A DNA stretch of 64,000 bases from Chitinophagales bacterium (lineage in GTDB: Bacteria; Bacteroidota; Bacteroidia; Chitinophagales; UBA2359), in the NCBI GenBank assembly GCA_016787295.1, contig JAEUUX010000146.1, forward strand, positions 1 to 64,000, given 5' to 3'. The position numbers were made by a program, and so were the translations under genes. Of this stretch, positions 15,040-45,532 are shown one piece after another (position 1 is the stretch's first letter; the number at the start of each line of letters is the position of its first letter). The notes under the pieces are model-generated. The model saw only the letters and a list, made by a program, of their open reading frames with translations. It was not told where the DNA came from and made no database searches.

Positions 15040-15408
15040 TTATGGTTGTCGACGAATTTCAATAGTTATTTGTTGTGGCGGCTCACCATTTTGTGCCACC
15101 ACCGTATAACTACCTTCATAGAGCGTTTGCACATCAAAAAAAACAATGGTGCTACCCTGATAAATAGTTTTATTTTGCAAAACATTTTTTTGTGCATCAA
15201 GCAATTGGATAGGTAAATTGTTCCGTACCAATCCCTTTGCCTGCACCACCACAATATCATTCAAAGGTTCATAGAACGCTTTGATAACATTGCTCACCTT
15301 GCTTCGGCTGTGGATTTGGTGTTGGTCTAAGGTTTGAGCTTGTGTGGGTAGTGCATACATCACCAGCACACACATTGCCAATATTCCCAAATAACTATTT
15401 ATTTTCAT
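15040..15408 (-). CDS. Small secreted protein resembling a stand-alone T9SS sorting domain
   Basis: 122 residues with a signal peptide ending PTQAQ (about residue 25). The rest (DIVVVQAKGL, IQLLDAQKNVLQNKTI, LYEGSYTVVAQNG, TIEIR) follows the strand pattern of T9SS C-terminal sorting domains, yet there is no cargo domain in front. Its ATG lies three bases after the TAA of the YHYH gene, so translation is probably coupled. Possible roles are an accessory surface protein or the separated tail of a formerly longer YHYH protein. The domain resemblance is by eye. Confidence 0.6.
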   Translation of the reverse strand: MKINSYLGILAMCVLVMYALPTQAQTLDQHQIHSRSKVSNVIKAFYEPLNDIVVVQAKGLVRNNLPIQLLDAQKNVLQNKTIYQGSTIVFFDVQTLYEGSYTVVAQNGEPPQQITIEIRRQP

Positions 15409-15411
15409 TAA

Positions 15412-16719
15412 TTAAGGATTTGTTTGTTGTAGAGAAATGTTGCCCACACTACCATTCCAGATAATTGTACAAGTATTGTCACACAAAGTACAACCGTCTA
15501 CAACGGTGTAGTCACCTGTGATGTTCCATTGATAGGCAGTCCCTGTCGGACCTGCTGCCACCGAATAAGTTTGCGAAGTTCCCACACAAGCTGTTGTATT
15601 GCCACTGATACTCGGATTAGGCGTAGTACAAGCTACTGGTGTATAGGTGGTGGTGGTTTCAGTGATACTTGTCACTTTTTGCGCATTTTTCACACCATAA
15701 AAAGTTGGTCCAACTGCATAAGGATAGGCAGAATTGTGGTTAGCATCAACCGTACAGAAATAGGCATAAGTACCACAAGGATATTCGGGCGTATAACAAT
15801 ATCTGCCATTATGCTCGTCCAAATAGCTGGCATCATCAGGGTGTGAAACAAACTCATAGTCCTCGCGGAAATATCCCAATGGGTAAGTCGTACTCACATT
15901 AGGTCCGTTTGGCACATCAGTACCATCTGCCCAATGGGTGCGTGTGGTGATGTTGCGCAATTGATAACCCGATTTTATACGTACAATTCCTCCTGTTCCA
16001 TCTGCATTCTGATAAGCATAAGCGCCATATATAGGAAAGCCATCATAAGCAAAACCCAACAAAGGCGAATGCTCCGTATTATCTATAGTATACAAAGCAT
16101 CGGAATCATACAAAGTACATATAGTTGAAATGACCGTCAAATCCATATCAAAAGCACTCGGGTTTTGATGGTGGTGATAGTTGCCCATAGCAGGGTGTCC
16201 TTTGGCACAGTCAAAACCGCTTCGTTCTGCAACAATGGCATCGCGATTCCAATAGGTTGTGCCACTACAAGGAGTGTTACCAGGACCACCACAAAGCGCA
16301 TTGGTCGTTGTGTTCCACGCCACACCGTCGCGATAGTCAAACAATGCCACACCATTAATAAACAAGCCGATATTACCGCCTGTCGTTGCTGTTGCCGTGC
16401 CTGTGTTTTGTTGTGGGTTAAGTGGAAGTTTAAAAATTCCGTTTTGGTCACTTGCTTGCGAAGGATTACCGTCCAAAAATGGTCCCGTAGGATAAGCTGG
16501 GACACCACGCGTTGCTATATAAGCCCAAGAAGAAGAGTACCGCACCGATTGACAATTAACCAAAATGTTGTTGCCCACCGGTGTGGAGTTGCCCTGTGTA
16601 TAATAGCTACCTGTTGTGGTATTGTTGAGCAACCAAGATGTGATAACAGGGTTTGTTTGTGCCAATACCTGTCCCGTAAACAAGGCAGCAAGCCCAAAAA
16701 TCATTACAAAATGTCTCAT
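15412..16719 (-). CDS. Secreted YHYH-domain protein
   Basis: 435 residues with a signal peptide (cleavage near VLAQ, about 21). The body matches the YHYH family: GIFKLP, an internal DYRDGVAWN segment, a DCAKGHPAMGNYHHHQNP motif (YHHH here instead of the family's usual YHYH), HSPLLGFAYDGFPIYG, and the late GTYAYFCTVD. The His cluster and conserved acids suggest metal binding, but no enzymatic activity is established. The last ~75 residues (from ISGNTTACVG) look like a PKD-like domain. No sorting tail is fused, but a stand-alone tail-like protein follows three bases later. It lies 230 bases downstream of the MbnH-like gene, so co-transcription with the copper module is possible. Confidence 0.8.
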   Translation of the reverse strand: MRHFVMIFGLAALFTGQVLAQTNPVITSWLLNNTTTGSYYTQGNSTPVGNNILVNCQSVRYSSSWAYIATRGVPAYPTGPFLDGNPSQASDQNGIFKLPLNPQQNTGTATATTGGNIGLFINGVALFDYRDGVAWNTTTNALCGGPGNTPCSGTTYWNRDAIVAERSGFDCAKGHPAMGNYHHHQNPSAFDMDLTVISTICTLYDSDALYTIDNTEHSPLLGFAYDGFPIYGAYAYQNADGTGGIVRIKSGYQLRNITTRTHWADGTDVPNGPNVSTTYPLGYFREDYEFVSHPDDASYLDEHNGRYCYTPEYPCGTYAYFCTVDANHNSAYPYAVGPTFYGVKNAQKVTSITETTTTYTPVACTTPNPSISGNTTACVGTSQTYSVAAGPTGTAYQWNITGDYTVVDGCTLCDNTCTIIWNGSVGNISLQQTNP

Positions 16720-16830: not shown

Positions 16831-16856
16831 TAGTGTAGGGTTTAAACCCTACGCTA
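16831..16856. repeat. 26-base inverted repeat between the MbnH-like and YHYH genes
   Basis: TAGTGTAGGGTTT faces AAACCCTACGCTA with one mismatch and no spacer. Two further GTAGGGG words lie just upstream (about 16785-16812). There is no T run, so it looks more like an operator or dispersed palindrome than a terminator. Confidence 0.6.
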
Positions 16857-16949: not shown

Positions 16950-18005
16950 CTACTGCACTTCGCCATTCGAAGATGAGCTATTTTTTTTATCCAACAAATA
17001 CGTTTTGGGAAAAGCAACAGCAGGATTAAACACAAAATGGCGGTCGTTAAGCGTAAGCAAAAAAGCAATAAGGTCAATTTTTTCGTTGGCAGAAAGCACC
17101 ACACCATTTTGCAGTTCCTTGCTCAAAGTGGCACTTTTTTGTATATTTTTGGTATAATGTTGCAATACTTGTTGGATTTTTTGGAAACGACCATCATGCA
17201 TATAAGGTGCAGTATATTCCCAATTTCGGAGCGTAGGGATTTTAAACAACAACGAATCGGCATGGTTTTGCGTGATTTTCATTTTGCCATAATCTTTCAA
17301 AACCGTATCGAGCGGCAATCCGTTATTAGCAAATTGGTAGGTAGAAAACAAAGGCGGCGGGTGACACGTTGAACAATGTTGGTCAAACAAAACATAACCA
17401 TGTTGTTCTTGTTCTGTAAAATGGCTTTGTTTTCGCATCACGCTGTCAAACTTTGCTTGGTTACTCACCAATGTCAATTGAAATTGTGCCAAGGCTTTGA
17501 GCAAATTTTCTCCTGTCACGGTGCTGTCACCAAAAGCTTTTTTGAACAAAGGTGGATACAAAGCCTCTTTCTCCAATTTTTTGACGACGTTTGGCATACT
17601 CTCTGCCATCTCCAAAGGGTGTGTAATCGGAGCAAGGGCTTGCATGTCTAAATGATGAATAGCTCCGTCCCACATAAAACGTTCGTGCCATGCCAAATTC
17701 AGCAAAGCGGGCGCGTTGCGTGTCCCAATTTTGTCGCCAATACCATGACTTAGCGCGTGGTCGGTGTGGGCAAAGCTGTTGTAGGGCGAATGGCACGAAG
17801 CACACGAAATTGTGTTATCTTGTGACAAAATAGGGTCATAAAACAAAATTCTGCCCAAAAGTACTTTATCTTTGTCCAATGGGTTTTGCTTAAAATCGTA
17901 GTGCGGCGGCGGAAAGTAGGAAGGCGGACTAAATAGGTGTGACATGGTGCGACAGGCTACTGCAAACACCATGCAGCAACACATCATAGCCATTTTTTTG
18001 TTCAT
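16950..18005 (-). CDS. MbnH-like di-haem cytochrome c peroxidase family enzyme
   Basis: Periplasmic c-type cytochrome of the MauG/CcpA superfamily, 351 residues. Two haem motifs are visible: C68-A-S-C71-H72 and C211-S-T-C214-H215. Family landmarks include LGRILFYDPILSQDNTISC, TRNAPALLNLAW, FMWDGAIHHLDMQA and YMHDGRF. In the MbnH group the partner is MbnP, on which a tryptophan is oxidised to kynurenine to build a copper site. The immediately upstream overlapping gene is an MbnP homologue, which favours MbnH over ordinary peroxidase. The N-terminus (VFAVAC, Cys18) could be a lipoprotein signal. It is the last gene of the overlapping operon. Confidence 0.85.
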   Translation of the reverse strand: MNKKMAMMCCCMVFAVACRTMSHLFSPPSYFPPPHYDFKQNPLDKDKVLLGRILFYDPILSQDNTISCASCHSPYNSFAHTDHALSHGIGDKIGTRNAPALLNLAWHERFMWDGAIHHLDMQALAPITHPLEMAESMPNVVKKLEKEALYPPLFKKAFGDSTVTGENLLKALAQFQLTLVSNQAKFDSVMRKQSHFTEQEQHGYVLFDQHCSTCHPPPLFSTYQFANNGLPLDTVLKDYGKMKITQNHADSLLFKIPTLRNWEYTAPYMHDGRFQKIQQVLQHYTKNIQKSATLSKELQNGVVLSANEKIDLIAFLLTLNDRHFVFNPAVAFPKTYLLDKKNSSSSNGEVQ

Positions 18006-18688
18006 GGTTTGGTAGAAAAAAGTTGTGCCACTATGTGTGCCAAGCGCACGGCTTCAGCTTGTGGTGACATGATTTCGGGCAGGCGAACAAGGTCTGTTTG
18101 TTCCAAAAAACGCGCTATATCGAAATACAATATCCATTGGTCTTGTTGGCTATTGAGGAGCAAAGTGCAGGTTTTTTGAGTGCTAAAAGGCGCTTGATAA
18201 CCGCCCAAATGGTATTGAAAAAAATGGTTTCGGGTGGTACAATGGGAACTATATCCTTCTATTTTGCAGTTGATATAACCGCTTTGCCATGTCCAATACA
18301 TGCCATTAACGGGGTCTAAATCTTTGCCCATTGCGCCGGCTACTTGGGTTGTCGAATCTATGCCCAAAGTATAGCGAAATTGGTTAAAAACAAGCTTTTT
18401 TTTGTTTGATAGGTCAATAGAAAGGGAGTTGGGTTGGCTAATATCTATCAAAAAATGTTTTTTTGTGGGACGAAACACCACTTCGCCATCTTGCAACAAT
18501 TCTATGTTTGACAAATAAAATTTACAAGTACTGATTTGTATGCTATCTTGTTTTTGTGCTATCCAATAACTGCTATCCAATACCAATTTTTGTCCCTGAA
18601 ACAACAACTGTATGTCCAAAGCGCGGTTTTTTTGTGCAATTGCCACATTGCTACACAACAATAAAAAAAATAAACAACGAATTATCAT
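18002..18688 (-). CDS. MbnP-like copper-binding protein
   Basis: 228 residues with a signal peptide ending AIAQ (about 19). It matches the MbnP family in CKFYLSNIELL (about 55-65), DPVNGMYWTWQSGYINCKIEG (motif core 129-138, with Trp132 and Trp134) and FFQYHLGGY (His160). Established knowledge: MbnP proteins bind copper at a site that depends on a kynurenine made from tryptophan by MbnH. Which tryptophan would be modified here cannot be decided by eye. The start overlaps the end of the CpxP-like gene, and its stop overlaps the MbnH-like start, so the two should be made together. Confidence 0.83.
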   Translation of the reverse strand: MIIRCLFFLLLCSNVAIAQKNRALDIQLLFQGQKLVLDSSYWIAQKQDSIQISTCKFYLSNIELLQDGEVVFRPTKKHFLIDISQPNSLSIDLSNKKKLVFNQFRYTLGIDSTTQVAGAMGKDLDPVNGMYWTWQSGYINCKIEGYSSHCTTRNHFFQYHLGGYQAPFSTQKTCTLLLNSQQDQWILYFDIARFLEQTDLVRLPEIMSPQAEAVRLAHIVAQLFSTKP

Positions 18689-19140
18689 TTTTTGGGAGGG
18701 TGATGGGGTGCAAAAATGGAGCTTAGGTCTTTTGTCAACTGCTCAAAACGCGGGAGTTGTTGCGGCTGACAAAGGGTGCGAATGTCCGTGAAATGTTGGT
18801 AGTGAATGATTTCTATTGCTTTTTGTTGTTCGCCAATAAGAGTGGTCAAAGAGTCGACGGTTGTTTGTTTGGGAGGTGTAATGGTTGTTAAAGCGTATAG
18901 CTGGTTTTTGAGGGAGCGAATGGTGCTGTCTTTTATTCTTATTTTTTGGCGATGCTGCTGTATCAACACATCATATTGTTTGATTTGTTGGTCATTGAAC
19001 TGTAGGCGTTCGATGACAATTTGGCGTGGGCGGTCGTGTGGCGAATGTGGTGGGCGACGAAGGTAGGCTCCCACCCAAAGTAGTCCATTGAGCAACAACA
19101 ACATGCCCACCAATAACTGATAAAAACGGATTTTATTCAT
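18685..19140 (-). CDS. CpxP/Spy-like periplasmic sensor protein
   Basis: 151 residues: one N-terminal membrane segment (about 7-25) and a periplasmic all-helical, charged domain (FNDQQIKQYDVLIQQHRQKI, SLTTLIGEQQKAIEIIHYQH, TLCQPQQLPRFEQL) with the helix-hairpin pattern of the CpxP/Spy/ZraP group. Such proteins sense metal or misfolded protein in the periplasm. It overlaps the mini anti-sigma gene by eight bases and the MbnP-like gene by four. In this position it may present an envelope signal to the membrane protein upstream (inference). Confidence 0.75.
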   Translation of the reverse strand: MNKIRFYQLLVGMLLLLNGLLWVGAYLRRPPHSPHDRPRQIVIERLQFNDQQIKQYDVLIQQHRQKIRIKDSTIRSLKNQLYALTTITPPKQTTVDSLTTLIGEQQKAIEIIHYQHFTDIRTLCQPQQLPRFEQLTKDLSSIFAPHHPPKK

Positions 19141-19390
19141 AGTACAAATTGTTGGTAGGATATAGGTTGAAAGTGTCGGAATCGGCGGCGGCAGTGACGG
19201 CAGTGGGCTGTAGTAACAACCAAAAGGTAGCTCCCCACAAAAAAAATAGGATTATTGCTGCAATACGGACATAGCGGACAGGTAGGCGGTCGGCTTCTTG
19301 TTGCGCTACTTTGTCCATAATTTTTTGGTACAAATCGGCGGGAGGTGCTATTGGACGAAAGTGCGATAAATCTTGGAATGGGTCTTTCAT
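19133..19390 (-). CDS. Small single-pass membrane protein, probable anti-sigma factor
   Basis: 85 residues: a cytoplasmic N-terminal part of about 42 residues (ADLYQKIMDKVAQQEADR resembles the juxtamembrane helix of anti-sigma proteins), one membrane segment (about 44-62, IAAIILFFLWGATFWLLL) and a short periplasmic tail. It lies 25 bases after the sigma factor gene and overlaps the CpxP-like gene, the usual place for a cognate anti-sigma factor. No zinc-finger cysteines are present. The role rests on context. Confidence 0.6.
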   Translation of the reverse strand: MKDPFQDLSHFRPIAPPADLYQKIMDKVAQQEADRLPVRYVRIAAIILFFLWGATFWLLLQPTAVTAAADSDTFNLYPTNNLYYE

Positions 19391-19415
19391 GTTGTATTAG
19401 ACGACAAAAAAAAAT

Positions 19416-19943
19416 TTATCCTTCGCGAGGTGGCAATTTTTCGAGCAACTTTTTTTTGGCGCGTTGCAAAAGGCTCTCCACAGCTTTGGGACTTAATTGC
19501 ATAATTTCGGCAGTTTCGGCGGTGGTTTTTTGTTCTATTTTGAGCAAAATAACTGCTGTTTTTTGTTGTTCGGGCAAATCGTTAATACATTGTAGCAGTG
19601 TTGTTAGGCTTTCTTTTTGCTCCAAAGCAATGCCAGGGTGTTGCTGGTCGGGGAGGTCTATGGCGGGTGTGGTGCCGTTGGGGCGATACCATGAGAGGAA
19701 CAAAGCAAAGCGTTTCTGGCGTTTTTGGGCTTTGAGAAAATCTAAACAATGGTTGATGGTAATGCGATAAATCCATGTCTTGAGGCTGGCATGTCCTTGA
19801 AAAGTGGCATATTTTTGGTGAACTACTACAAACACATCTTGCGCAATTTCTTCGGCATCTTCGGGGCGCTGAACATAATGCAAACACAAATTGAACACCA
19901 TGTTGCGATAGGTCATAAAAATTTCTTCGAAGGACAAATTCAT
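19416..19943 (-). CDS. ECF-type RNA polymerase sigma factor
   Basis: 175 residues with sigma region 2 (LSFEEIFMTYRNMVFNLCLHY, PEDAEEIAQDVFVVV, SLKTWIYRITINHCLDFL) and region 4 with its DNA-reading helix (LPEQQKTAVILLKIEQKTTAETAEIMQLSPKAVESLLQRAKKKL, seen as about 110-170). It should direct polymerase to a small stress regulon and most likely its own operon. The ATG at 19943 starts just before region 2; an ATG at 19982 would add 13 residues. It heads the tightly packed set of sigma, anti-sigma-like, CpxP-like, MbnP-like and MbnH-like genes. Confidence 0.92.
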   Translation of the reverse strand: MNLSFEEIFMTYRNMVFNLCLHYVQRPEDAEEIAQDVFVVVHQKYATFQGHASLKTWIYRITINHCLDFLKAQKRQKRFALFLSWYRPNGTTPAIDLPDQQHPGIALEQKESLTTLLQCINDLPEQQKTAVILLKIEQKTTAETAEIMQLSPKAVESLLQRAKKKLLEKLPPREG

Positions 19944-20025
19944 GTTCGTTGTGTGGAAAAAAATGGACGAAATGTTTTGCATGAGGCATTAGCCGCCGCA
20001 AAAAAAGAATCATGACAAAGCGCTC

Positions 20026-20135
20026 GAATGGCGAAGCGCGTTAGGGATGCGGAGGGTGGCGTTAGCCAGTGCGGAGAGCAACGCAGCACCAAGCATAGCG
20101 AAGCCCATAGCAGCCCGACCCGCAGGGAAACGCCC
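20026..20135 (-). repeat. Dispersed intergenic repeat, copy B
   Basis: Reverse-oriented member of the ~105 bp family, sharing GGCGAAGCGCGTTAGGGAT and GACCCGCAGGGAAACGCCC with the other copies. The middle (GGTGGCGTTAGCCAGTGCGG) matches copy D rather than A and C. It lies between the divergent sigma and batB genes. Confidence 0.85.
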
Positions 20136-20303
20136 AAATAAATTATCTTTTTATCGGACATTGTTGTTTTATTTGATTTCTTATAGACATTGTTGAGCTT
20201 GTTTTTATTCTCTTTGGGCAACAAAGATGGTTTATTTTTTGCAAGATATAGAAATTTAGTTCTCAAAAAGGTGGGGTTGTTTTTTTTGTACGACAAAATA
20301 TAC

Positions 20304-22777: not shown

Positions 22778-23260
22778 CTATCTTTGTCCGCCTTTACCTT
22801 TGCCTTTACCTTTACCTTTGCCTTTAGCATTGTTTTTAAATACCTTTGAGTCGTATTTAATGCGTTGGTCGTCGGTGAGCAGTTTGCGAATTTCTTGGTG
22901 CATACTTGCCTCTTTTTTCTCGATATTAGCTTTGATAACCACCATATCGTCAATCATTTTGTAGACAGCAGTCATATCAGGACGAGCGGCGGTTTGTGCT
23001 GTATTTAGTTTGGCATCTTTTTCGCGCAATTCGGCACGAAGCGGTTGTACGGATTTTTCAAAATCAGCTTTGATGTTTTTGATTTTATCCAATTGATCTT
23101 GGGTAACACCCAAGTCCTCCAAAGTGGCTTGTTTTTTCTCTAAAGCAGCTTCTTTTTTCTCAGCTTTATTAGCTTGAGCAACTGCATCATGATTAACAAA
23201 GACAACACCTGACAATACCATAAAGGCAACTAAGACAGAACGAAAAGACTTTTTTAACAT
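22778..23260 (-). CDS. Spy/CpxP-like periplasmic protein with Gly-Lys tail
   Basis: 160 residues with a signal peptide (MLKKSFRSVLVAFMVLSGV, cleavage near AVAQ). The mature part is a charged helical domain: LGVTQDQLDKIKNI, then paired helices, and LLTDDQRIKYDS, an LTxxQ-type motif of the Spy/CpxP family, which binds unfolded proteins or metals. The C-terminus is a run of alternating Gly-Lys pairs (about 148-157) encoded by an 18-base-scale simple repeat, unusual for the family. The frame is open upstream to 23311, but the ATG at 23260 begins the signal peptide. Single-gene unit with its own terminator. Confidence 0.78.
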   Translation of the reverse strand: MLKKSFRSVLVAFMVLSGVVFVNHDAVAQANKAEKKEAALEKKQATLEDLGVTQDQLDKIKNIKADFEKSVQPLRAELREKDAKLNTAQTAARPDMTAVYKMIDDMVVIKANIEKKEASMHQEIRKLLTDDQRIKYDSKVFKNNAKGKGKGKGKGKGGQR

Positions 23261-23364
23261 TGCAAATGGGATTATTTTTGTGAAACAATAACAAATCGTA
23301 TAGTAAGACAAGGGTGCAGTATCATTGGTTTAACGCACTTTTTTTTGTTATCTCACTAATTTTG

Positions 23365-35401: not shown

Positions 35402-38400
35402 TTATCGTTTGAGTTCTATAAAACCATTGATTTGTTTTTCGCTATCAGGCGTTAGTTTAACGATGTAGAAATAAGTGCCATCGGGCAAATCATTGCCGTT
35501 TTGTTGCCATTTTCCGTTCCATTCGTTCAAACCGTCACCATATCCGCTTTGACGGAACACAATGTCACCCCAACGGTTAAAAATAATAACTTCATTTTCG
35601 GGATAACAAGCATAGAGGTTAAATACTTCCCATATTTCGTATTTGCCGTCTCCATTGGGCGAAAAACCGTTAGGATAGAACAATGGCAAGTTACAATCGG
35701 GTTCAACGACTATCAACACTTGCGCCGTATCACACAAATTATTGACACATACCACATAACTAAACGTATCTACACCTGTAAAGAACGGATCAGGTAGGTA
35801 GGTAATGGTGGTGTCGTTGGTGACGGTGGCTGTACCATTGGCAGGAGCGGTCAATATGGTCACAATTGGACTAAAGCCGTCTATGGTAGGAATGGTATCG
35901 TTGCCCAATACACTAATTACTATTTCGGTGGCAGCCAGCGTGGTGTCTATGTCATCAAAAGCTATAATCAAGGTGTCGTTGGTGCTGGTGCTATCTATGT
36001 TGATAAACACAAAAGCACTGTCAATATTGCCATTGGCATCGGTAATCTGGTATACTATAACATCAGACCCTAAATAAGCAGAATCAGGTGTATATAATAT
36101 GTCATTACCTACCAATTGTGCTGTACCGTGTTGTGGGTCTTGCAGAATAATGACCGTAAGTGGTTCTTCACCTGTATCATTGCCCAAAACATTTATCAAA
36201 GTATCCACTTGTCCAAAAGCCATATTAACCGTATCGTTTTCGGCATTGATGGTGATGGTTTCGGGCAATACATAGAGGCAAATATTGAGCGTATCGCACA
36301 CGCCTGTCGTATCGCAAATACCAATGCTAAAGAAGTCTGTTCCTGTATAATCTAAATCAGGTTGATAGTTAATACAAGAATCAGCGCTATTAGGGTCAAA
36401 GAAAATAGTACCGTTGCTGGCGTTGCTATATATTACAATGGTATCTATAGCAAATGGTGGTGTAATATAATCGCCAATGCAAATGGTGGTGGGCGTATTG
36501 GTGTTGGTAGTAACGCTAATGTCACAACTCAAGGAGTCGGGTACGATATTAATCACCACAAAACTGGTATCGCAATTGCCCAAGGTATCACAAATGGCGT
36601 AGTAGAAAGTATCTACACCCACATAAGCAGAGTCAGAGACATAACTCAATACGTTTTGTGGTGGAGCGAAAAATACCGTTCCGTGTAAAGCGTCGGTCAC
36701 AATACCAGTCACACTAATGGCATCGCCCAAATCGTTGTCCAATACTGGGATTTCGATAAGTTCTCCCGAAGCCGCAAATACATAGTCAGGGTTGGCTACC
36801 ACTGGCTCTGGAATGGTGTCGGTGGTAATGGTGATGATAATCCAAGCTGTGTCGCACAAAGGCGGTGTGCCGTTGTCACATACTATATATTGTATCGAAT
36901 CAATACCTGTAGCGTCTGCGTTGGCTTGGTACAAAATGCTATTGGTAGGCAATACTTGTATTACGCCTTGTTGTGGTCCTTGTACTATGCTAATGGTGCC
37001 TATTTGTGCCAATGGATTATCGGCTGCATTCGGGTCTATGTCGTTGTCCAATATTGGTATTTCTACAAAAGCACCTGCTTCCACCGTTGCTTGGTCGTCT
37101 TGTGCAATAGGTGCTAAATTGATGCTATCGGGCGTGATATTGATGAAAACTATTGCTGTATCACACAAAACAGAATCGGCATTGTCACACACCACATATA
37201 CCAAAGTGTCTGCTCCAACATAAGCAGAATCAGGTGTGTAGGTGATAGTGCCTGTGGCATCTATGACCGCTGTTCCATGATTAGGTTGGGTAGTAATGGC
37301 TGTAATGGTCAACATATCGCCATCGGGGTCGGTGTCGTTGTCCAAAACAGGAATTATTACGTTGCTATTTGCTTCACCATTCGCAAAATCATCGTTGGCA
37401 ATAGGTGCTTGGTTGAGTTGATAGTATTCTGTTACAGTAATGAACACAAAAGCCGTATCGCACAAAGCAGGCGTTCCATTGTCACAAACAGTATATAATA
37501 AAGTATCTGTCCCCACAAAATCGGCATTGGCGGTATAACTAATAGTATTGTTAGCTGTAACAATAGCCGTACCATGATTAGGCGCTGTAACAATGCTCAA
37601 TGTGCCGATAGTTGCCAAAGGATTGTCTTCGGGATTGGGGTCGGTGTCGTTGTCCAAAACAGGAATATCTATTGTTTGTCCGCTTTGGGTGTTGGCTATA
37701 TCGTTTTGTGCGTCGGGAGGAGTTGCTCCTTGCGTCATAATCACTACCACAAAAGTAGAAGAGCATTCTTGGTTGGTATTACAAATGGTATAGTCAAAAT
37801 AATCTGTACCGCTGGTAAATCCTGGATAAGGATTATATGACACAGTTCCATCGGGATTCAATTGGGTAGTGCCATTGCCTGCTTGAGCTACTGTACTTAC
37901 CGCAATATCATTACCAAAATCGTTGGTCAATACGTTGATAATAGTTACTTGTCCTGATTGTGCATATACCGTATCGGTAATTGCCAAAGGTGGCACGGGA
38001 ATAGTATCGCTATTGACAGTAACAATAACCATGGCATTGTCGCACAAAGGCGGTGTATCAGTATCGCAAAGATTATACACAAAAGTATCTACACCAATAA
38101 AGCCATTATTAGGCGTATATAAAATAGTACCGTTGGCATTGATAACTGCTGTACCATTGTTGGGCAATGTGCTAATTTCTGCAATATTCACCGCTCCACC
38201 ATCGGGGTCTATATCGTTTTGCAATACAGGTATTTCTATGGCGGTGTTAATGCTGGTGTTAGCGGCATCGTCGCTGGCAATAGGTGCTTGGTTGTCCGTA
38301 ATAAGATCGACGGTTACAAACACGCTGGCAGTGTCACAATCAGATTGGTCGGCATTACAGATAATATAAGAGAAGACATCAATGCCCGTGAAATCGCTAT

Positions 38401-41400
38401 TGGGTGTGAATGTTATCGTACCGTTGGCATTGATGGTCGTTGTGCCGTTGGGAGGCGTGCTGGCAGAAATAACTTGTAGCCCACCTCCTAAATCGTTGCT
38501 TAATACTGGAATATTGATAGCCTCGCCTTGGTTGGTATTGGCAAAATCGTCATTAGCTACTACATCGTCACTTGTTGGTGTTACGGTCACGGTCACTTGT
38601 GCGTTGTCGCAACCCAAAGCATTACATACCAAATAACTAAAGGTATCCGTTCCAACAAAACCTGTGTTCGGGATATAGGTCACAGTGCCGTCGTCGTTGT
38701 TTATTATCTGACCGTTGCTGGCTGACCCTACGGTCACTAAGTTGAGGTTACTACCCAAGTCGTTGTCCAAAATAGGAATGGTGACTAGGGTATTTTGCAT
38801 AGTGGTAGCCGCATCATCAATAGCATTGGCAGCACCGCTCACTACTTCATTAACCGTAATAAGTACAGTAGCACTATCACAACCTACACTATTGCAGATA
38901 GTATAGGTAAATGAATCTGTTCCTACAAAATCATTGTTGGGTGTATAGGTAATTGTGCCATTGGGATTTACCACAATTGTACCATTAGCAGGATTGTTTG
39001 TTTCGGTGATATTGATATTGTTGCCCAAATCATTGTCTAAAACAGGAATGGTAACGGATTCGTTTTGGTCGGTTGTGGTGGCATCATCTAAAGCATCGGG
39101 GCTTGTTTCTGCTGCCTCAACAACAGTCACTACTACCCATGCTGTATCACAACCTGCGGGATTACAAACTTCATAACTGAATGAATCTGTTCCTACAAAG
39201 TCGGGATTAGGTGTATAGGTAAAAATATTGTTCTCGATAGTCGTTTGTCCGTTTTGTGGAGTAGTAACATCTGTTGTTACTTCGAGATTATTACCCAAAT
39301 CGTTGTCCAATACGGCAATATTGATAGTACTATTTTCGTCAACCGTAACAGCATCATCGTTGGCAATTGGGGCTTGGTCTTCTATCACTTCCTCAACGGT
39401 AATGATTACCCAAGCCGTGTCGCAACCAATTGGGTTACAAACCACATAACTAAACGAATCTGTTCCTATAAAGTCGGGATTCGGGATATAGGTAATGATG
39501 TTGTTGGTGATGGTAGTTTGTCCATTTTGGGGAGCGTCAAAAACTGTAGTTACAGTAAGATTGTTGCCCAAATCGTTGTCCAAGACGGCTATATTGATGT
39601 TGCCATTTTCGTCAACCGTAACAGCGTCATCGTTGGCAATTGGGGCTTGGTCTTCTATCACTTCCTCAACGGTAATGATTACCCAAGCCGTGTCGCAACC
39701 TAAAACATTACAAACTGTATAGCTAATAGAATCTTGTCCTATAAAACCTGCATTGGGCGTATAGGTGAGCGTACTATTGCTCACGCCTACTTGTCCGTTA
39801 GTGGGATTTATCGTAATTTCGCCAAAAATGATATTTGTTCCACTGTCGTTCAGCAAGACATTTACGCTGATTGCTTGACTTTCGGGAGTACTTAGATAGT
39901 CATCAACCCCTACTGGTGGAATGTCGGTATTGACAGGAGTAATGGTAATGGTTACGTTGCCTGTATCGCATACAGTACCACTACATATTACATAGTCAAA
40001 ATTGGTTGTACCCACAAAATCAGTAGCAGGTGTATAAGTTATAGAGCCATTGGCATTTACAACAGCCGTACCATTTTGAGGGGGTATAACGCTCACTACC
40101 AAATCGTTACCCGTATCGTTTGCCAAGACATTGATAGTCACAACTTGATTTTGTGGTGTAGTAGCTGTGTCGTCATTGGCAGTCACTTCTACAGGTTCGT
40201 CACCGACGGTAATCGTTACTATAGCTTGGTCGCAAAGTGGTGGTGTTGCATTGTCACACACTTCATAAATAATTTGGTCGGTACCACTATAGCCAACATT
40301 AGGAATATAAGTAATGCTACCATCAGGATTAACGCTGGCAATACCATGATTAGGTTGGTCTATGATAGTAACGGTCAATGGGTCGTTATTGGGGTCGGAG
40401 TCATTTGCCAATATATTGATATTGGTCGTAGTATTGACATCGGTGGTTGCGAAATCGTCGTTGGCGTTGGGTGCTTGGTTGTCGTTATTGCCATTGTTAT
40501 TGACTGTTACGGTCACTGTGGCAGTACTACAAGCCGTTGGGTTACCACTGTCGCAAATAGTATAGGTAAATTCGTCGGTGCCTACATAGTTGTTGTTGGG
40601 TGTATAGGTAATAGTACCATTGGCGTTGATAAAGACCGTTCCATGTTGCGGTTGTGCTACATTGGTCACATAAAGTTGTCCGCCTTCGGGGTCGCTATCA
40701 TTAACTAATACATTGATAACCACAATTTCGTTTTCGGTCACTTCAGCCACATCATCAACTGCAATAGGCGCTTGGTTGATGGGTGCGTCGCCTTCCACAA
40801 TAATCACCACCACACTCTCGTCACAACCAAATTGGTTGCAAATAGTATAGGAAAAATAATCATTGCCAACAAAACCTTGATTGGGAGTGTAGACAAAGCT
40901 ATTGGTAGTACTATTAAATACAATAGTGCCATTTTGGGCAAAAGTGTATTGAGTAATGCTCAAATTGCTACCCGAATCATTATCTAAAGGGAAAATGCTA
41001 ATCGCTTGGTTTTGTTGAGTGGTTACTACATCTACTTCTGCTATGGGTGGATTGCCTATAAGGTCTGGGATATTAACCGTAATGGTAGCTGTAGAACACA
41101 AAGTAGGGTCACACACATTGCAAATTTGGTAAGATAAAATTTCGCTTTGTCCGCCGCTATTGGGTGCGGGTTCGTAGTAGAGAATACCATCTACAATAAA
41201 GGCTGCTTCGCCCAACGTGGGTTCGGTAAGCAATGTAGTAGTATAATCATAGTTGCAATTTTGAATATCGTTTTGTGCAACATTAGCGATAGAAAACTCA
41301 CTAATTTCGGCAGTCATCACATCATCCACAGCTTGAGGAGCAATGCAATCTACTGTTACCAATACAGTCATCGTTTCGCATTGTCCTGCTGCATTACAAC

Positions 41401-44400
41401 CTGTGACGGTCAATGAGTCTATACCTGTGGCATCGGGCAAAGCAATATATTGGAAACAAGTATCGCTAATTACTGCCACACTGCACATTTGTGAATGGTT
41501 AATGTCTGTAATTTCATAGTCCACCAAAGTACAAAATTCTACACAAATTTCGGTAGGAGCAATAGGTGAGGTACAAACACTAATGGCTGTTTCGCAAGGT
41601 ATGCCAATGGTGATAGTGACTGCGGCACCATCGCAATGTCCATACGGGTCACACACCACATACGCCAATACATCAGTGCCTGTATAGCCTTCGTTGGGAG
41701 TATACAATATACTGTTACCAACAATGCTTGCTGTGCCGTGTTGAGGGGCTTCGAATATATCAGAAAGGCTAAAAGCATCGTCTTGTGGGTCGACATCATT
41801 GGCAGTGACATCAATTGTAACAGTCGTATTAATAGCTGTCGTTGCCACATCGTCAATAGCTTCTAAATCGCAATTATTGGCAATTTCTACGGCATAACTT
41901 ATTGTAGAACAATAGCCTGGTGTCAATACATCACATACTTCTAATACTACTTCGGCAATTTCGCCAACAACGCTTGTATCATTCACCACAAAGTTGAAAC
42001 AATTGGGCAAGCCACTGGCAGGAAATATGCCGCCCATGCTGGCAGTTTTCGTTACCTCACCCCAAGCGTTGAGTGGTTCACAAAAATCGGGACATAACAA
42101 CAAAGCAATGTAGGGTTGCGTACAAGCAAAGTTGGTTTGTTCACATGCTGTTGCTATGGCATTAACAGTTATAGTAACAGTTCCGATGCTTGTCTGACCA
42201 AATACATCTGTGGCACTATAGGTAAAGCTATCTGTGCCTGTAAATACGGCATTCGGCATATAGATAATTTGGTTGTTGGGGTCTATATTGACCGTTCCGT
42301 TGGCGGGATAAGTGGCAATATCGGGTGAAAGTGTGCCGAAACCACCATCATTTTCCAATACATTGATAGCTATAGGCTGTCCTATAACGGTGGTTGCACT
42401 ATCAGGATTAGCATCGGGTTGGTCGGGACAGCCTACACTGACAATTACTTCGGTGTTGCCACATTCGTTGTTATCATTACAAGCTGCTACAGACAAAGTA
42501 TCTAAACCCAAAAATCCGATTTGGGCAGTATAGCGGAAGCAAGTTTCACTCAATATATTTATGCTACCAATTTCGCCCGTTACGTCTGTTATTTGTATGG
42601 CATTGCCTTCGGAGTCGGTGATAGGCAAGCAAATAGTAACAGGTTGGGTGGGTTCAAGACATTTATAGATGGTCTCGAAAGATGGAATGCTCATCAATTG
42701 CTCTTGCTGCACATTTGGCACTTGTGTGAGGTTAAGGTCGTTGGAACGGGTTTGGAAAACACCATCTTGGCGCGAACTACCATTCAACTGCACACTATAG
42801 CCTTGTTCGTTCGTATCCCAATTACCATAGCGATTACCGTCTGCTCCCACCAAAGTATAGATGCGTGGCACTTTGAAAGTCACATAGTATCGTCCCAAAG
42901 GAACATTGTCAAATACATACCAACCATCGGTATTCGTATAACTTTGTCCAACAATTTGGTGAGTAATAGCTCGACGCAAGGTAACTGCTATTTGTGGCAA
43001 GATAGGTTCGTTGGCTTCGCGCAAACCATTATTGTTCATATCCACAAAAGCCTGCCCTTCCACTGATGCTAAACCGCCGCCTAACATCACCACCACTGTA
43101 TCGACGGCATAACAACCTTCGGGAGTGCTGGCAGTAACGCTATACACGCCACTTTGTACAACAGACAAGGTAGGTGTGGTAGCGCCCGTAGACCAAATAT
43201 AATCAGTAAATTCGGAATAATCTTGAGCGTCCAATACAGTTCCCATATTGACGGCATACAAGGTATCGGGACCCAAATCTACAAAAGGATATTGAACTTC
43301 TATGTTTATCACATCAGAATTAGTACAACCTATTGCATCGGTGGCTGTAACTGTATAGGTGCCACTTACGTATACATCTATAGTAGGCGTTGTTTCGCCC
43401 GTAGACCATATATAGCCTGGATAGTTGGGTTGACTCAAATTGAGCGTAATACTATCGCAAGTCACTTGGGTTACATCGCCCAAGTTCAAATAAGGACCAC
43501 TACCAAAATTGACTGTGATGTCGTCGGTGGCAGTACAACCACCTGCCGCTGTAACAGTAACGGTATAAGTGCCACTTTCATCAACCGAAATAGATTGTGA
43601 ATTCGCACCAGTAGACCATTGATAACCGATAAAGTTGCTCGGTGCGGGGAAAATGCTATAGTCGTCGTCGTCGCAAACATTTACCACATCTTCGCCCAAG
43701 TTTACACTCACACCGCCATTAGCAACAGTTACAGTCACTACATCGGTGGCTGTGCAGCCATGAACTTCGGTAGCAGTAACCGTATACGTCCCCGATTGTG
43801 TGACTGCGACACTTTGGGAGGTAGCTCCATTTGACCAGCTATAGGAAATAAATCCTGTGCCTGCATTAAGGACATTGCCTGCGCAAAAAGTTTGGTTGGC
43901 TGCTCCTAAGTCGACAGACGCATAAATAATATCTGCCCAAACATAGCCAATACTTTCACAACCTTGTGGGTCGGTCACAGTTACAGAATAATCGCCAGAA
44001 CTCGTGACATAGATGCTTTGGGTAGTGGCTCCTGTACTCCACAAATACGTTGCAAAACCAGCTCCCGCATCGATGGTTGTCGGACCACAAAAATCCTGCA
44101 TAAATTCGCCCAAATTGACCTGCATACCTCCACCGATATTGACTGTAATTTGGTCGGTGCCTGTGCAACCGTTATTGTCAGTTACGGTAACAGTATAAGT
44201 GCCAGAGGTGGCAATAAAAATACTTTGGGTATTGAGTAAAGTTGACCATTGGTAAGAGGCAAAACCGCTACCTGCATCCAAAGTAGTTGGACCACAAGTG
44301 GTCAATACATCAGGACCAAGGTCTACATTAACACTACCATCGCCTAAGTTAACGACCGATTGAGCCGTACCAATACAACCGTTTCCTTGAGAAACAGTAA

Positions 44401-45532
44401 CAGTATAAGTACCGCTTTGGCTTACAGTAATGTTTTGGGTAGTAGCGCCATTTGACCAAGCATAACCATCAAAACCTACACCTGCGCTTAAAGTCACACT
44501 ATTATTGCAACTATTGATGACTGGTGGCAAAAAGACATTGATAGTTGTTGGGTCGTCATAAGAGAAATTGTACGATGCCACACAACCATCACCATCTACA
44601 ACTGTGAGAGTATAGTCGCCGGGGCAGGCATCATAGACATAAATGGCATTGCCCACAGCATTGGATAAAATGCTGGGGGTGATATTATAGGTATAAGGTA
44701 TTTGGGCATTGACCAAGAAAGTGGCTGTACCAGTGCAAATACTATTGCAAAAATCAAAATTGATATCACCCATCAAAGGCTCCCCAGTGGAGAAAGGAGT
44801 GCCATCGGCGCGTGTGCCATTGAACACAAACCACACCGCTCCTCCATAGTCATAGTCATGGGCATTTGCTCCAACCCCTACCTGAAAAGCATACATTTCG
44901 TAGTGGTAGTGTTCAAGATGAATCACTGCTCCGTCAAAATAAGTGCCTTCCACACCTGTTAAGGTGCTGGCATTGGAAAGATGATAGTATATCCAATTCA
45001 GGTAATGAATATCAACGCCATATGGTTGATTGTTGGGGTCTACATAGTAGGTCGTGCCATTGGACAGTGCGTCCCACATTTCCCATTCCATTCCATTTTC
45101 TAAATAGACCTGTACTTCCCATTGTTTGTTGGGATCATTTTTGTTGATTATGATAGCCGTTAGTTGGGCAGTTCCGTCATCAAAGGTATGGAATTGCGCT
45201 GTGCCGGGGACAAAGTTGTAGATAGGTGTGCCGTCGGCGGGATTGGTGAAACCCAAGAAAAAACTATAGCCATCGGGCGAATAATCTTGCACACAATCCA
45301 AATCACCAGGGCAAGGTTGGCTGTAGGACAATAAGTCAATACTACAGGATTGGTTTTCGAAAATAGACGGTTGAAGAATATTAAGGTATGGATTTGTTGA
45401 GAATGCAGGTAGTGACTGGTTATGCAGTAAGACACCACCCAAAATCCAACATACTAACATACAACTTTTCCAAAATTCTATGGCTTTGAACCGATGAACT
45501 TTTGGGTAATTGGGGTACTTCATTTGTATCAT
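35402..45532 (-). CDS. Giant tandem-domain surface adhesin with CHU_C sorting tail
   Basis: 3376 residues. Order: a signal peptide with a long N-terminal extension (hydrophobic core about 29-42); a unique domain (about 60-260); eight or so ~62-residue PKD/SprB-like repeats (about 330-860, pattern DLG...CGPTTLDAG...YQWSTGATTQSI...SGTYTVTVTD...GC); one SdrD B-like domain (about 870-975, VEGQAFVDMNNNGLREANEP); about twenty cadherin-like ~91-residue repeats (about 1000-3270, pattern NDD...IPVLDNDLGNN...NGT...TYTPN..FVGTDSF.Y.VCN..GCD); and the gliding-motility-type C-terminal domain (about 3280-3376, FSPNGDGKYEIWEV...FNRWGDIVF...NGKWQQNGNDLPDGTYFYIV). The Asp-rich linkers suggest calcium binding. 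It should be exported by the T9SS and anchored at the surface, possibly moving with gliding machinery. The second Met (45523) is an alternative start. Confidence 0.93.
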   Translation of the reverse strand: MIQMKYPNYPKVHRFKAIEFWKSCMLVCWILGGVLLHNQSLPAFSTNPYLNILQPSIFENQSCSIDLLSYSQPCPGDLDCVQDYSPDGYSFFLGFTNPADGTPIYNFVPGTAQFHTFDDGTAQLTAIIINKNDPNKQWEVQVYLENGMEWEMWDALSNGTTYYVDPNNQPYGVDIHYLNWIYYHLSNASTLTGVEGTYFDGAVIHLEHYHYEMYAFQVGVGANAHDYDYGGAVWFVFNGTRADGTPFSTGEPLMGDINFDFCNSICTGTATFLVNAQIPYTYNITPSILSNAVGNAIYVYDACPGDYTLTVVDGDGCVASYNFSYDDPTTINVFLPPVINSCNNSVTLSAGVGFDGYAWSNGATTQNITVSQSGTYTVTVSQGNGCIGTAQSVVNLGDGSVNVDLGPDVLTTCGPTTLDAGSGFASYQWSTLLNTQSIFIATSGTYTVTVTDNNGCTGTDQITVNIGGGMQVNLGEFMQDFCGPTTIDAGAGFATYLWSTGATTQSIYVTSSGDYSVTVTDPQGCESIGYVWADIIYASVDLGAANQTFCAGNVLNAGTGFISYSWSNGATSQSVAVTQSGTYTVTATEVHGCTATDVVTVTVANGGVSVNLGEDVVNVCDDDDYSIFPAPSNFIGYQWSTGANSQSISVDESGTYTVTVTAAGGCTATDDITVNFGSGPYLNLGDVTQVTCDSITLNLSQPNYPGYIWSTGETTPTIDVYVSGTYTVTATDAIGCTNSDVINIEVQYPFVDLGPDTLYAVNMGTVLDAQDYSEFTDYIWSTGATTPTLSVVQSGVYSVTASTPEGCYAVDTVVVMLGGGLASVEGQAFVDMNNNGLREANEPILPQIAVTLRRAITHQIVGQSYTNTDGWYVFDNVPLGRYYVTFKVPRIYTLVGADGNRYGNWDTNEQGYSVQLNGSSRQDGVFQTRSNDLNLTQVPNVQQEQLMSIPSFETIYKCLEPTQPVTICLPITDSEGNAIQITDVTGEIGSINILSETCFRYTAQIGFLGLDTLSVAACNDNNECGNTEVIVSVGCPDQPDANPDSATTVIGQPIAINVLENDGGFGTLSPDIATYPANGTVNIDPNNQIIYMPNAVFTGTDSFTYSATDVFGQTSIGTVTITVNAIATACEQTNFACTQPYIALLLCPDFCEPLNAWGEVTKTASMGGIFPASGLPNCFNFVVNDTSVVGEIAEVVLEVCDVLTPGYCSTISYAVEIANNCDLEAIDDVATTAINTTVTIDVTANDVDPQDDAFSLSDIFEAPQHGTASIVGNSILYTPNEGYTGTDVLAYVVCDPYGHCDGAAVTITIGIPCETAISVCTSPIAPTEICVEFCTLVDYEITDINHSQMCSVAVISDTCFQYIALPDATGIDSLTVTGCNAAGQCETMTVLVTVDCIAPQAVDDVMTAEISEFSIANVAQNDIQNCNYDYTTTLLTEPTLGEAAFIVDGILYYEPAPNSGGQSEILSYQICNVCDPTLCSTATITVNIPDLIGNPPIAEVDVVTTQQNQAISIFPLDNDSGSNLSITQYTFAQNGTIVFNSTTNSFVYTPNQGFVGNDYFSYTICNQFGCDESVVVIIVEGDAPINQAPIAVDDVAEVTENEIVVINVLVNDSDPEGGQLYVTNVAQPQHGTVFINANGTITYTPNNNYVGTDEFTYTICDSGNPTACSTATVTVTVNNNGNNDNQAPNANDDFATTDVNTTTNINILANDSDPNNDPLTVTIIDQPNHGIASVNPDGSITYIPNVGYSGTDQIIYEVCDNATPPLCDQAIVTITVGDEPVEVTANDDTATTPQNQVVTINVLANDTGNDLVVSVIPPQNGTAVVNANGSITYTPATDFVGTTNFDYVICSGTVCDTGNVTITITPVNTDIPPVGVDDYLSTPESQAISVNVLLNDSGTNIIFGEITINPTNGQVGVSNSTLTYTPNAGFIGQDSISYTVCNVLGCDTAWVIITVEEVIEDQAPIANDDAVTVDENGNINIAVLDNDLGNNLTVTTVFDAPQNGQTTITNNIITYIPNPDFIGTDSFSYVVCNPIGCDTAWVIITVEEVIEDQAPIANDDAVTVDENSTINIAVLDNDLGNNLEVTTDVTTPQNGQTTIENNIFTYTPNPDFVGTDSFSYEVCNPAGCDTAWVVVTVVEAAETSPDALDDATTTDQNESVTIPVLDNDLGNNINITETNNPANGTIVVNPNGTITYTPNNDFVGTDSFTYTICNSVGCDSATVLITVNEVVSGAANAIDDAATTMQNTLVTIPILDNDLGSNLNLVTVGSASNGQIINNDDGTVTYIPNTGFVGTDTFSYLVCNALGCDNAQVTVTVTPTSDDVVANDDFANTNQGEAINIPVLSNDLGGGLQVISASTPPNGTTTINANGTITFTPNSDFTGIDVFSYIICNADQSDCDTASVFVTVDLITDNQAPIASDDAANTSINTAIEIPVLQNDIDPDGGAVNIAEISTLPNNGTAVINANGTILYTPNNGFIGVDTFVYNLCDTDTPPLCDNAMVIVTVNSDTIPVPPLAITDTVYAQSGQVTIINVLTNDFGNDIAVSTVAQAGNGTTQLNPDGTVSYNPYPGFTSGTDYFDYTICNTNQECSSTFVVVIMTQGATPPDAQNDIANTQSGQTIDIPVLDNDTDPNPEDNPLATIGTLSIVTAPNHGTAIVTANNTISYTANADFVGTDTLLYTVCDNGTPALCDTAFVFITVTEYYQLNQAPIANDDFANGEANSNVIIPVLDNDTDPDGDMLTITAITTQPNHGTAVIDATGTITYTPDSAYVGADTLVYVVCDNADSVLCDTAIVFINITPDSINLAPIAQDDQATVEAGAFVEIPILDNDIDPNAADNPLAQIGTISIVQGPQQGVIQVLPTNSILYQANADATGIDSIQYIVCDNGTPPLCDTAWIIITITTDTIPEPVVANPDYVFAASGELIEIPVLDNDLGDAISVTGIVTDALHGTVFFAPPQNVLSYVSDSAYVGVDTFYYAICDTLGNCDTSFVVINIVPDSLSCDISVTTNTNTPTTICIGDYITPPFAIDTIVIYSNASNGTIFFDPNSADSCINYQPDLDYTGTDFFSIGICDTTGVCDTLNICLYVLPETITINAENDTVNMAFGQVDTLINVLGNDTGEEPLTVIILQDPQHGTAQLVGNDILYTPDSAYLGSDVIVYQITDANGNIDSAFVFINIDSTSTNDTLIIAFDDIDTTLAATEIVISVLGNDTIPTIDGFSPIVTILTAPANGTATVTNDTTITYLPDPFFTGVDTFSYVVCVNNLCDTAQVLIVVEPDCNLPLFYPNGFSPNGDGKYEIWEVFNLYACYPENEVIIFNRWGDIVFRQSGYGDGLNEWNGKWQQNGNDLPDGTYFYIVKLTPDSEKQINGFIELKR
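39332..39427. repeat. Near-identical direct repeat inside the adhesin gene, unit 1
   Basis: 96 bases that recur at 39605-39700 with one difference; the offset is 273 bases, exactly one 91-residue domain. Confidence 0.88.
39605..39700. repeat. Near-identical direct repeat inside the adhesin gene, unit 2
   Basis: Partner of 39332-39427. Other domain copies in the gene are far more diverged, so this pair marks a recent domain duplication or gene conversion. Confidence 0.88.

Follow-up and report, generated by a model that had tools for sequence, protein, structure and literature searches.

A recurrent gene module of Bacteroidota joins a CnrYXH-like trio to MbnP, MbnH, and YHYH genes

INTRODUCTION

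The enzyme MbnH oxidizes the first tryptophan of the WxW motif of its partner MbnP to kynurenine, and the copper ligands of MbnP are a histidine, a methionine, and solvent, with that kynurenine nearby. Here, we analyze computationally a locus that encodes members of both families in a Chitinophagales bacterium (phylum Bacteroidota; GenBank assembly GCA_016787295.1), within positions 1 to 64,000 of contig JAEUUX010000146.1, a 64,000-nucleotide stretch hereinafter called the window. The pair is preceded by genes for an extracytoplasmic function (ECF) sigma factor, a small membrane protein, and a periplasmic sensor, and it is followed by a gene for a YHYH-family protein. The first three genes, which we call the trio, resemble the CnrYXH system in layout and sensor fold, a resemblance by which we do not claim membership.

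In the CnrYXH system, carried by pMOL28 of Cupriavidus metallidurans, CnrY is a membrane anti-sigma factor, CnrX is a periplasmic sensor, and CnrH is an ECF sigma factor that is released upon exposure to Ni or Co (PMC4803752). The locus described here shares this design, with a single-transmembrane protein of 85 to 95 amino acids (aa), an N-terminally anchored helical sensor, and tightly packed genes. The two differ in that the sigma gene comes last in CnrYXH and first here, and in that a resistance-nodulation-division efflux pump lies downstream there, whereas MbnP, MbnH, and YHYH do so here. For Bacteroidota, only 6% of ECF sigma factors were found beside a class I anti-sigma factor (PMC7406223).

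With the MbnP/MbnH pair of Methylosinus trichosporium OB3b, the locus shares the adjacency of the two genes, the PF20243 and CCP_MauG domains, the MxWxW and HxG motifs aligned to PDB entry 7l6g, and a Tyr in place of the Met of cytochrome c peroxidases. Unlike in the four-Cys type, no Cys is conserved among the MbnPs of the clade studied here, and the regulator is different; some Methylosinus pairs lie near the FecIR-type regulators MbnI/MbnR (PMC3621798). The methanotroph systems CorA/CorB and MopE/SACCP likewise comprise a kynurenine copper protein cotranscribed with a di-heme peroxidase-like partner, and the kynurenine-copper theme has been documented for CorA (PMC3912023). They differ from the present locus in being repressed by copper, and no ECF trio has been described for them. 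CorA and MopE have been reported to be not markedly similar to MbnP in sequence (PMC3621798).

RESULTS

Five open reading frames (ORFs) follow one another on the minus strand between positions 16950 and 19943 of the window. The first encodes an ECF sigma factor of 175 aa (19416..19943; 188 aa from an ATG at 19982), recognized by the Pfam families Sigma70_r2 (2.1e-16) and Sigma70_r4_2 (5.9e-16). After a gap of 25 bases comes an 85-aa single-transmembrane protein (19133..19390), which is anti-sigma-like in size, topology, and position, followed by a CnrX-like, membrane-anchored periplasmic sensor of 151 aa (18685..19140), an MbnP-family protein of 228 aa with a signal peptide (18002..18688; PF20243, 4.9e-38, 131.4 bits against a cutoff of 27), and a MbnH/MauG-type di-heme enzyme of 351 aa that is probably a lipoprotein (16950..18005; CCP_MauG, PF03150, 2.3e-53). 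The last four genes overlap by 8 bases (membrane protein and sensor), 4 bases (sensor and MbnP), and 4 bases (MbnP and MbnH). The initial annotation had described these five genes, their common direction and overlaps, both CXXCH motifs, and the MbnP motif GMYWTWQSGY, all of which the sequence confirms. The span that it assigned to the module stopped short, however, of a conserved sixth gene on the same strand, which encodes a 435-aa YHYH-family protein (15412..16719; PF14240, 2.9e-53) and starts 230 bases downstream of MbnH.

A nine-member MbnP alignment, used to scan contigs of genomes, yielded 545 relatives. We retained the best 80, a biased sample of nearest kin rather than a census, and annotated their loci by profile labeling of every ORF together with gene calling. 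The order sigma factor, small ORF, sensor, MbnP, MbnH, YHYH is seen in Saprospiraceae, Chitinophagaceae, Flavobacteriaceae, Weeksellaceae, and Kapaibacteria. Upstream sequence exceeds 1.7 kb at 70 loci, and a sigma gene precedes MbnP at 30 of these, so that the five-gene order singled out earlier does recur across Bacteroidota. YHYH lies downstream of MbnH in 60 of the 68 loci with more than 2.5 kb beyond MbnH. All 32 loci carrying both sigma factor and sensor have a single-transmembrane ORF of 83 to 129 aa between them, and the median spacings from the sigma gene through YHYH are 30, -1, 2, -4, and 66 bases. Since the order is kept in dozens of genomes with such tight median spacings, the grouping is more than chance: this is a real, recurrent module, one conserved gene cluster. 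Some loci hold extra genes, encoding a multicopper oxidase (8 loci), a sulfatase, AhpC/TSA, or CotH, and three trio loci have a CotH-family gene of ~2.5 kb inserted between sensor and MbnP. AhpC/TSA genes have also been reported beside MbnPH in copper operons of other bacteria (PMC9426467).

The window sigma factor is 25% identical to CnrH, with a profile match of 3e-20. The 85-aa protein is laid out as ~40 cytoplasmic residues, a transmembrane segment at about residues 43 to 61, and a short periplasmic tail. It matches no Pfam family and has no detectable sequence similarity to the class II anti-sigma factor CnrY (95 aa), which it resembles in size and topology; an APPFLFTRI-like motif is frequent among the single-transmembrane ORFs in the second position of sigma-plus-sensor loci. 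An ECF sigma factor, a single-transmembrane protein that size, topology, and position mark as a putative anti-sigma factor, and an anchored sensor are thus encoded together, as in CnrYXH.

The sensor scores 28.8 bits against Metal_resist (PF13801), just below the cutoff of 29.2. Its AlphaFold2 model has a mean predicted local distance difference test score (pLDDT) of 93.5, and in a Foldseek search of the PDB with this model, ranks 1 to 12 are all CnrX, with NccX at 14, CpxP at 19, Spy at 21, and ZraP at 30. The CnrX matches have a probability of 1.00 and TM-scores of up to 0.79 by target length; their E-values are modest (0.02 to 0.06) because the sensor is a small helical protein. As modeled, the sensor has the CnrX fold. 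It had previously been labeled CpxP/Spy-like, and Spy is indeed its best match in a sequence-profile search (2e-4), CpxP, Spy, and ZraP being of the same broad helical class. It differs from these proteins in its membrane anchor and sigma linkage, and the fold ranking, with CnrX and NccX above CpxP, rules out CpxP as its nearest relative. When the trio was aligned directly to CnrYXH from the pMOL28 sequence, sensor H116 aligned with CnrX H119. Judging from this alignment, the sensor is not CnrX itself, H119 being the only one of the Ni/Co ligands that is matched; H63 and C124 are conserved here in place of the others. The conserved sensor residues are N18, H63, H116, F117, C124, and Q128. Positions 22778 to 23311 of the window encode another Spy/CpxP-like protein, which has a GKGKGK tail and whose gene does not adjoin a sigma gene.

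A wider MbnP profile matches PDB entry 7l6g, which we take to be a structure of MbnP, at 1.2e-5, with GMYWTWQSGY aligned to GMAWNWQAGR and H160 to the His of VHVG, in agreement with the original assignment of the window protein as an MbnP homolog. The depositors named this entry "metallo-mystery pair system four-Cys motif protein." All 86 MbnPs contain WxW, and M130, W132, W134, and H160 are invariant among them. These residues fit MbnH/kynurenine copper chemistry, and M130, W132 (the putative kynurenine), and H160 are candidate copper-site residues. The partner enzyme carries CXXCH motifs at C68/C71/H72 and C211/C214/H215. Its Y284 aligns with the Tyr of MbnH structure 6e1c, at a position where the solved peroxidase 1iqc has Met, and all 81 MbnH homologs having a residue there have Tyr. 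With two CXXCH motifs and Tyr replacing Met at the second heme, the protein is of the MauG/MbnH type, as first proposed, and the Tyr rules out an ordinary cytochrome c peroxidase. The same genome encodes a second, distant MbnP homolog (L002, G000:C188:108445-109005; PF20243, 1.4e-29). None of mbnA, mbnB, and mbnC was recognized among the genes examined, and no search was aimed at methanobactin genes.

YHYH homologs share an invariant His-rich motif (H175, H182, H184, H217), and a type IX sorting tail is present on those examined, with Por_Secre_tail on the YHYH proteins of L065 and L118. The window YHYH is without such a tail, and the gene that comes next (15040..15408, minus strand) encodes a 122-aa protein that has its own signal peptide, is like a type IX sorting tail, and matches the C termini of YHYH homologs (best E value, 2e-19), as if the tail that most YHYH homologs carry in cis had split off. 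YHYH is also found without MbnH. The predicted structure of YHYH was poor (pLDDT, 53), and no fold search was made from it; a PDB search with the YHYH alignment gave significant matches to the sorting tail only. The gap between MbnH and YHYH holds a near-perfect inverted repeat, TAGTGTAGGGTTTAAACCCTACGCTA (16831..16856), seen in the sequence and its folding, with no T-run after it on the minus strand. On pMOL28 (L183, 688-810), a 40-aa ORF that is annotated as YHYH domain-containing and ends in GIRHCH lies divergently upstream of cnrYXH; it is probably of a different family from PF14240, odd as the coincidence is.

The trio extends well beyond MbnP. In a sample of 247 Bacteroidota genomes, the sensor occurs in 86, and at the 30 loci examined, it is accompanied by a sigma gene in all and by MbnP in 5. 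Other trios sit ahead of genes for MscS channels, di-heme peroxidases, YHYH alone, redoxin, metallophosphoesterase, Lcl_C, or CBM9 proteins. The MscS-type genes directly follow the trio at L145, L149, L151, L154 to L157, and L159, as confirmed by Pfam at L145 and by sequence resemblance at the remainder. Other di-heme peroxidase genes follow it at L184, L194, L196, and L153, with a secreted protein of ~275 aa encoded in between at L194 and L196. On the MbnP tree, which was built by a quick method and has a weak backbone, the trio switches between presence and absence five times or more; it therefore behaves as a separable regulatory cassette. The sensor tree forces at least three changes of cargo label, and on it, the MbnP-linked sensors mostly form one group (31 of 32 rows, with the fork drawn open).

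A candidate ECF promoter, TTAAACC-N16-GTCT, is present just upstream of the sigma gene in all four Flavobacterium loci with upstream sequence, which are related, shared descent accounting for the motif in part. AAACC-N16-GTCT has one other match in 153 kb of scanned strand and one further instance in L143. In a Flavobacteriaceae locus (L106, 5700-6110), MbnP has the same flanking gene but no trio in between; TTAAACC is kept there, and GTCT is changed to CTCT. De novo motif search in 27 upstream regions found no credible ECF motif, and sampling at the family level around two carriers yielded too few loci for promoter footprinting. In the window, a TTG/TAnnTTTG promoter is present upstream on the strand of the divergent gene, and there is no TAnnTTTG on the sigma (minus) strand of this region. 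A GC-rich repeat of ~118 to 128 bases (20014-20141) lies in the interval that separates the sigma gene from the divergent VWA gene. It is found at least 40 times in the genome at 95 to 98% identity (261 first-look candidates), and incomplete copies occur elsewhere in the window, near 3.0, 26.6, and 54 kb.

Elsewhere in the window, a single 3376-aa ORF on the minus strand (35402-45532) probably encodes a giant surface protein, and an Rfam scan matched a single tRNA and nothing else.

DISCUSSION

The initial annotation held that no characterized system had this form. For the regulatory half, this is incorrect, CnrYXH being its analog; for the whole, it stands: the parts are known, but a CnrYXH-type switch wired to MbnP, MbnH, and YHYH is a new arrangement of them. 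With moderate confidence, we interpret the locus as a six-gene envelope module that is run by a CnrYXH-like switch and leads to a kynurenine-copper MbnP. At rest, the 85-aa membrane protein would keep the sigma factor bound at the inner membrane, stabilized by the periplasmic CnrX-like sensor. The sensor would be altered by a signal acting at H63/H116/C124 from the periplasm, for which a transition metal (copper, for instance) or a linked change in redox state is the likeliest candidate. Release of the sigma factor and transcription of the operon as one unit would follow, with the sigma factor presumably regulating its own gene, as first suggested. MbnH would then oxidize W132 of MbnP, and M130, H160, and the resulting kynurenine would form a Cu(I) site. 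YHYH may be a further effector, which in most relatives is apparently exported to the surface by the type IX system.

In favor of this scheme are the conserved order with its overlapping genes, the sensor fold and the alignment of H116 with CnrX H119, the distant similarity of the sigma factor to CnrH, the single-transmembrane ORF at all 32 loci, the sigma gene at all 30 sampled sensor loci, the published CnrYXH mechanism, the invariant MbnP residues and the MbnH Tyr, the linkage of YHYH, the multicopper oxidase and AhpC/TSA genes at some loci, the Flavobacterium promoter motif, and, in the window, the lack of TAnnTTTG upstream of the sigma gene on its strand. Several observations weigh against it. 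The CnrX ligands H42, H46, E63, and M123 have no counterpart in the sensor in the direct alignment, and the conservation of H63, H116, C124, and Q128 is just as strong in 25 trios whose cargo is different. MbnP and MbnH occur without an upstream sigma gene in 40 of the 70 loci, and the switch is thus dispensable. In the window, the 230-base gap with its hairpin separates MbnH from YHYH, and no ECF-type promoter, AAACC-N16-GTCT included, was recognized; a targeted phylum-wide test of AACC-GTC gave no significant enrichment. The window MbnP scores 28.4 bits against the TIGR04052 (MbnP_like_WxW equivalog) cutoff of 140, and MbnH scores 204.8 bits against the TIGR04039 cutoff of 362.85, TIGR04039 still being its best NCBIfam model.

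The most serious alternative, which we consider possible if on the unlikely side, is that the trio is a general envelope-stress switch of Bacteroidota that came to lie ahead of different effector genes repeatedly, MbnP/MbnH/YHYH being one such cargo, and that responds to redox change, misfolding, or membrane tension rather than to copper. The shared conservation of H63, H116, C124, and Q128 favors it, as do the varied cargo genes (MscS, peroxidases, redoxin, and others), the suitability of a conserved Cys for redox sensing, and the label changes on the sensor tree (at least three) and the MbnP tree (five). However, the MbnP-linked sensors mostly form one group, and di-heme or YHYH cargo recurs, so that cargo is not random. 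H63/H116/C124, being common to trios with other cargo, is ruled out as a copper-specific signature, and since the sensor residues are the same there, the sensor itself does not point to copper. Copper sensing is possible; sensing of copper or misfolding, as originally suggested, is not supported, given such different cargo. We are still more doubtful of a broader proposal, that a widespread CnrX-like His/His/Cys sensor might serve as a general periplasmic copper or redox sensor freeing ECF sigma factors for kynurenine copper proteins and for YHYH as a new class of surface metal proteins.

It seems to us improbable that the trio is merely a neighbor, with MbnP and MbnH under their own promoter and the sigma factor controlling other genes. 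The 40 loci with the pair and without the trio would suit such an arrangement, as would L106, where the -35-like block is kept and the -10-like block is changed, but the genes from the membrane protein through MbnH overlap or nearly overlap in most trio loci, and the order recurs across Bacteroidota families and Kapaibacteria. Less probable again, despite the tracking of MbnH by YHYH in 60 of 68 loci and the invariant His-rich motif, is that MbnH acts chiefly on YHYH or some other client, modifying or feeding it, instead of forming kynurenine in MbnP, for MbnP is nearly always paired with MbnH (median spacing, -4 bases), its WxW is invariant, and YHYH is found without MbnH too.

Under the six-gene interpretation that we prefer, MbnP and MbnH proteins outside methanotrophs would be placed in a defined regulatory setting, with YHYH as their constant partner. 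Among the carriers are species that can be cultured, for example, Flavobacterium swingsii and Chryseobacterium formosus. The CnrYXH design would thereby be extended to Bacteroidota, with different conserved candidate ligands.

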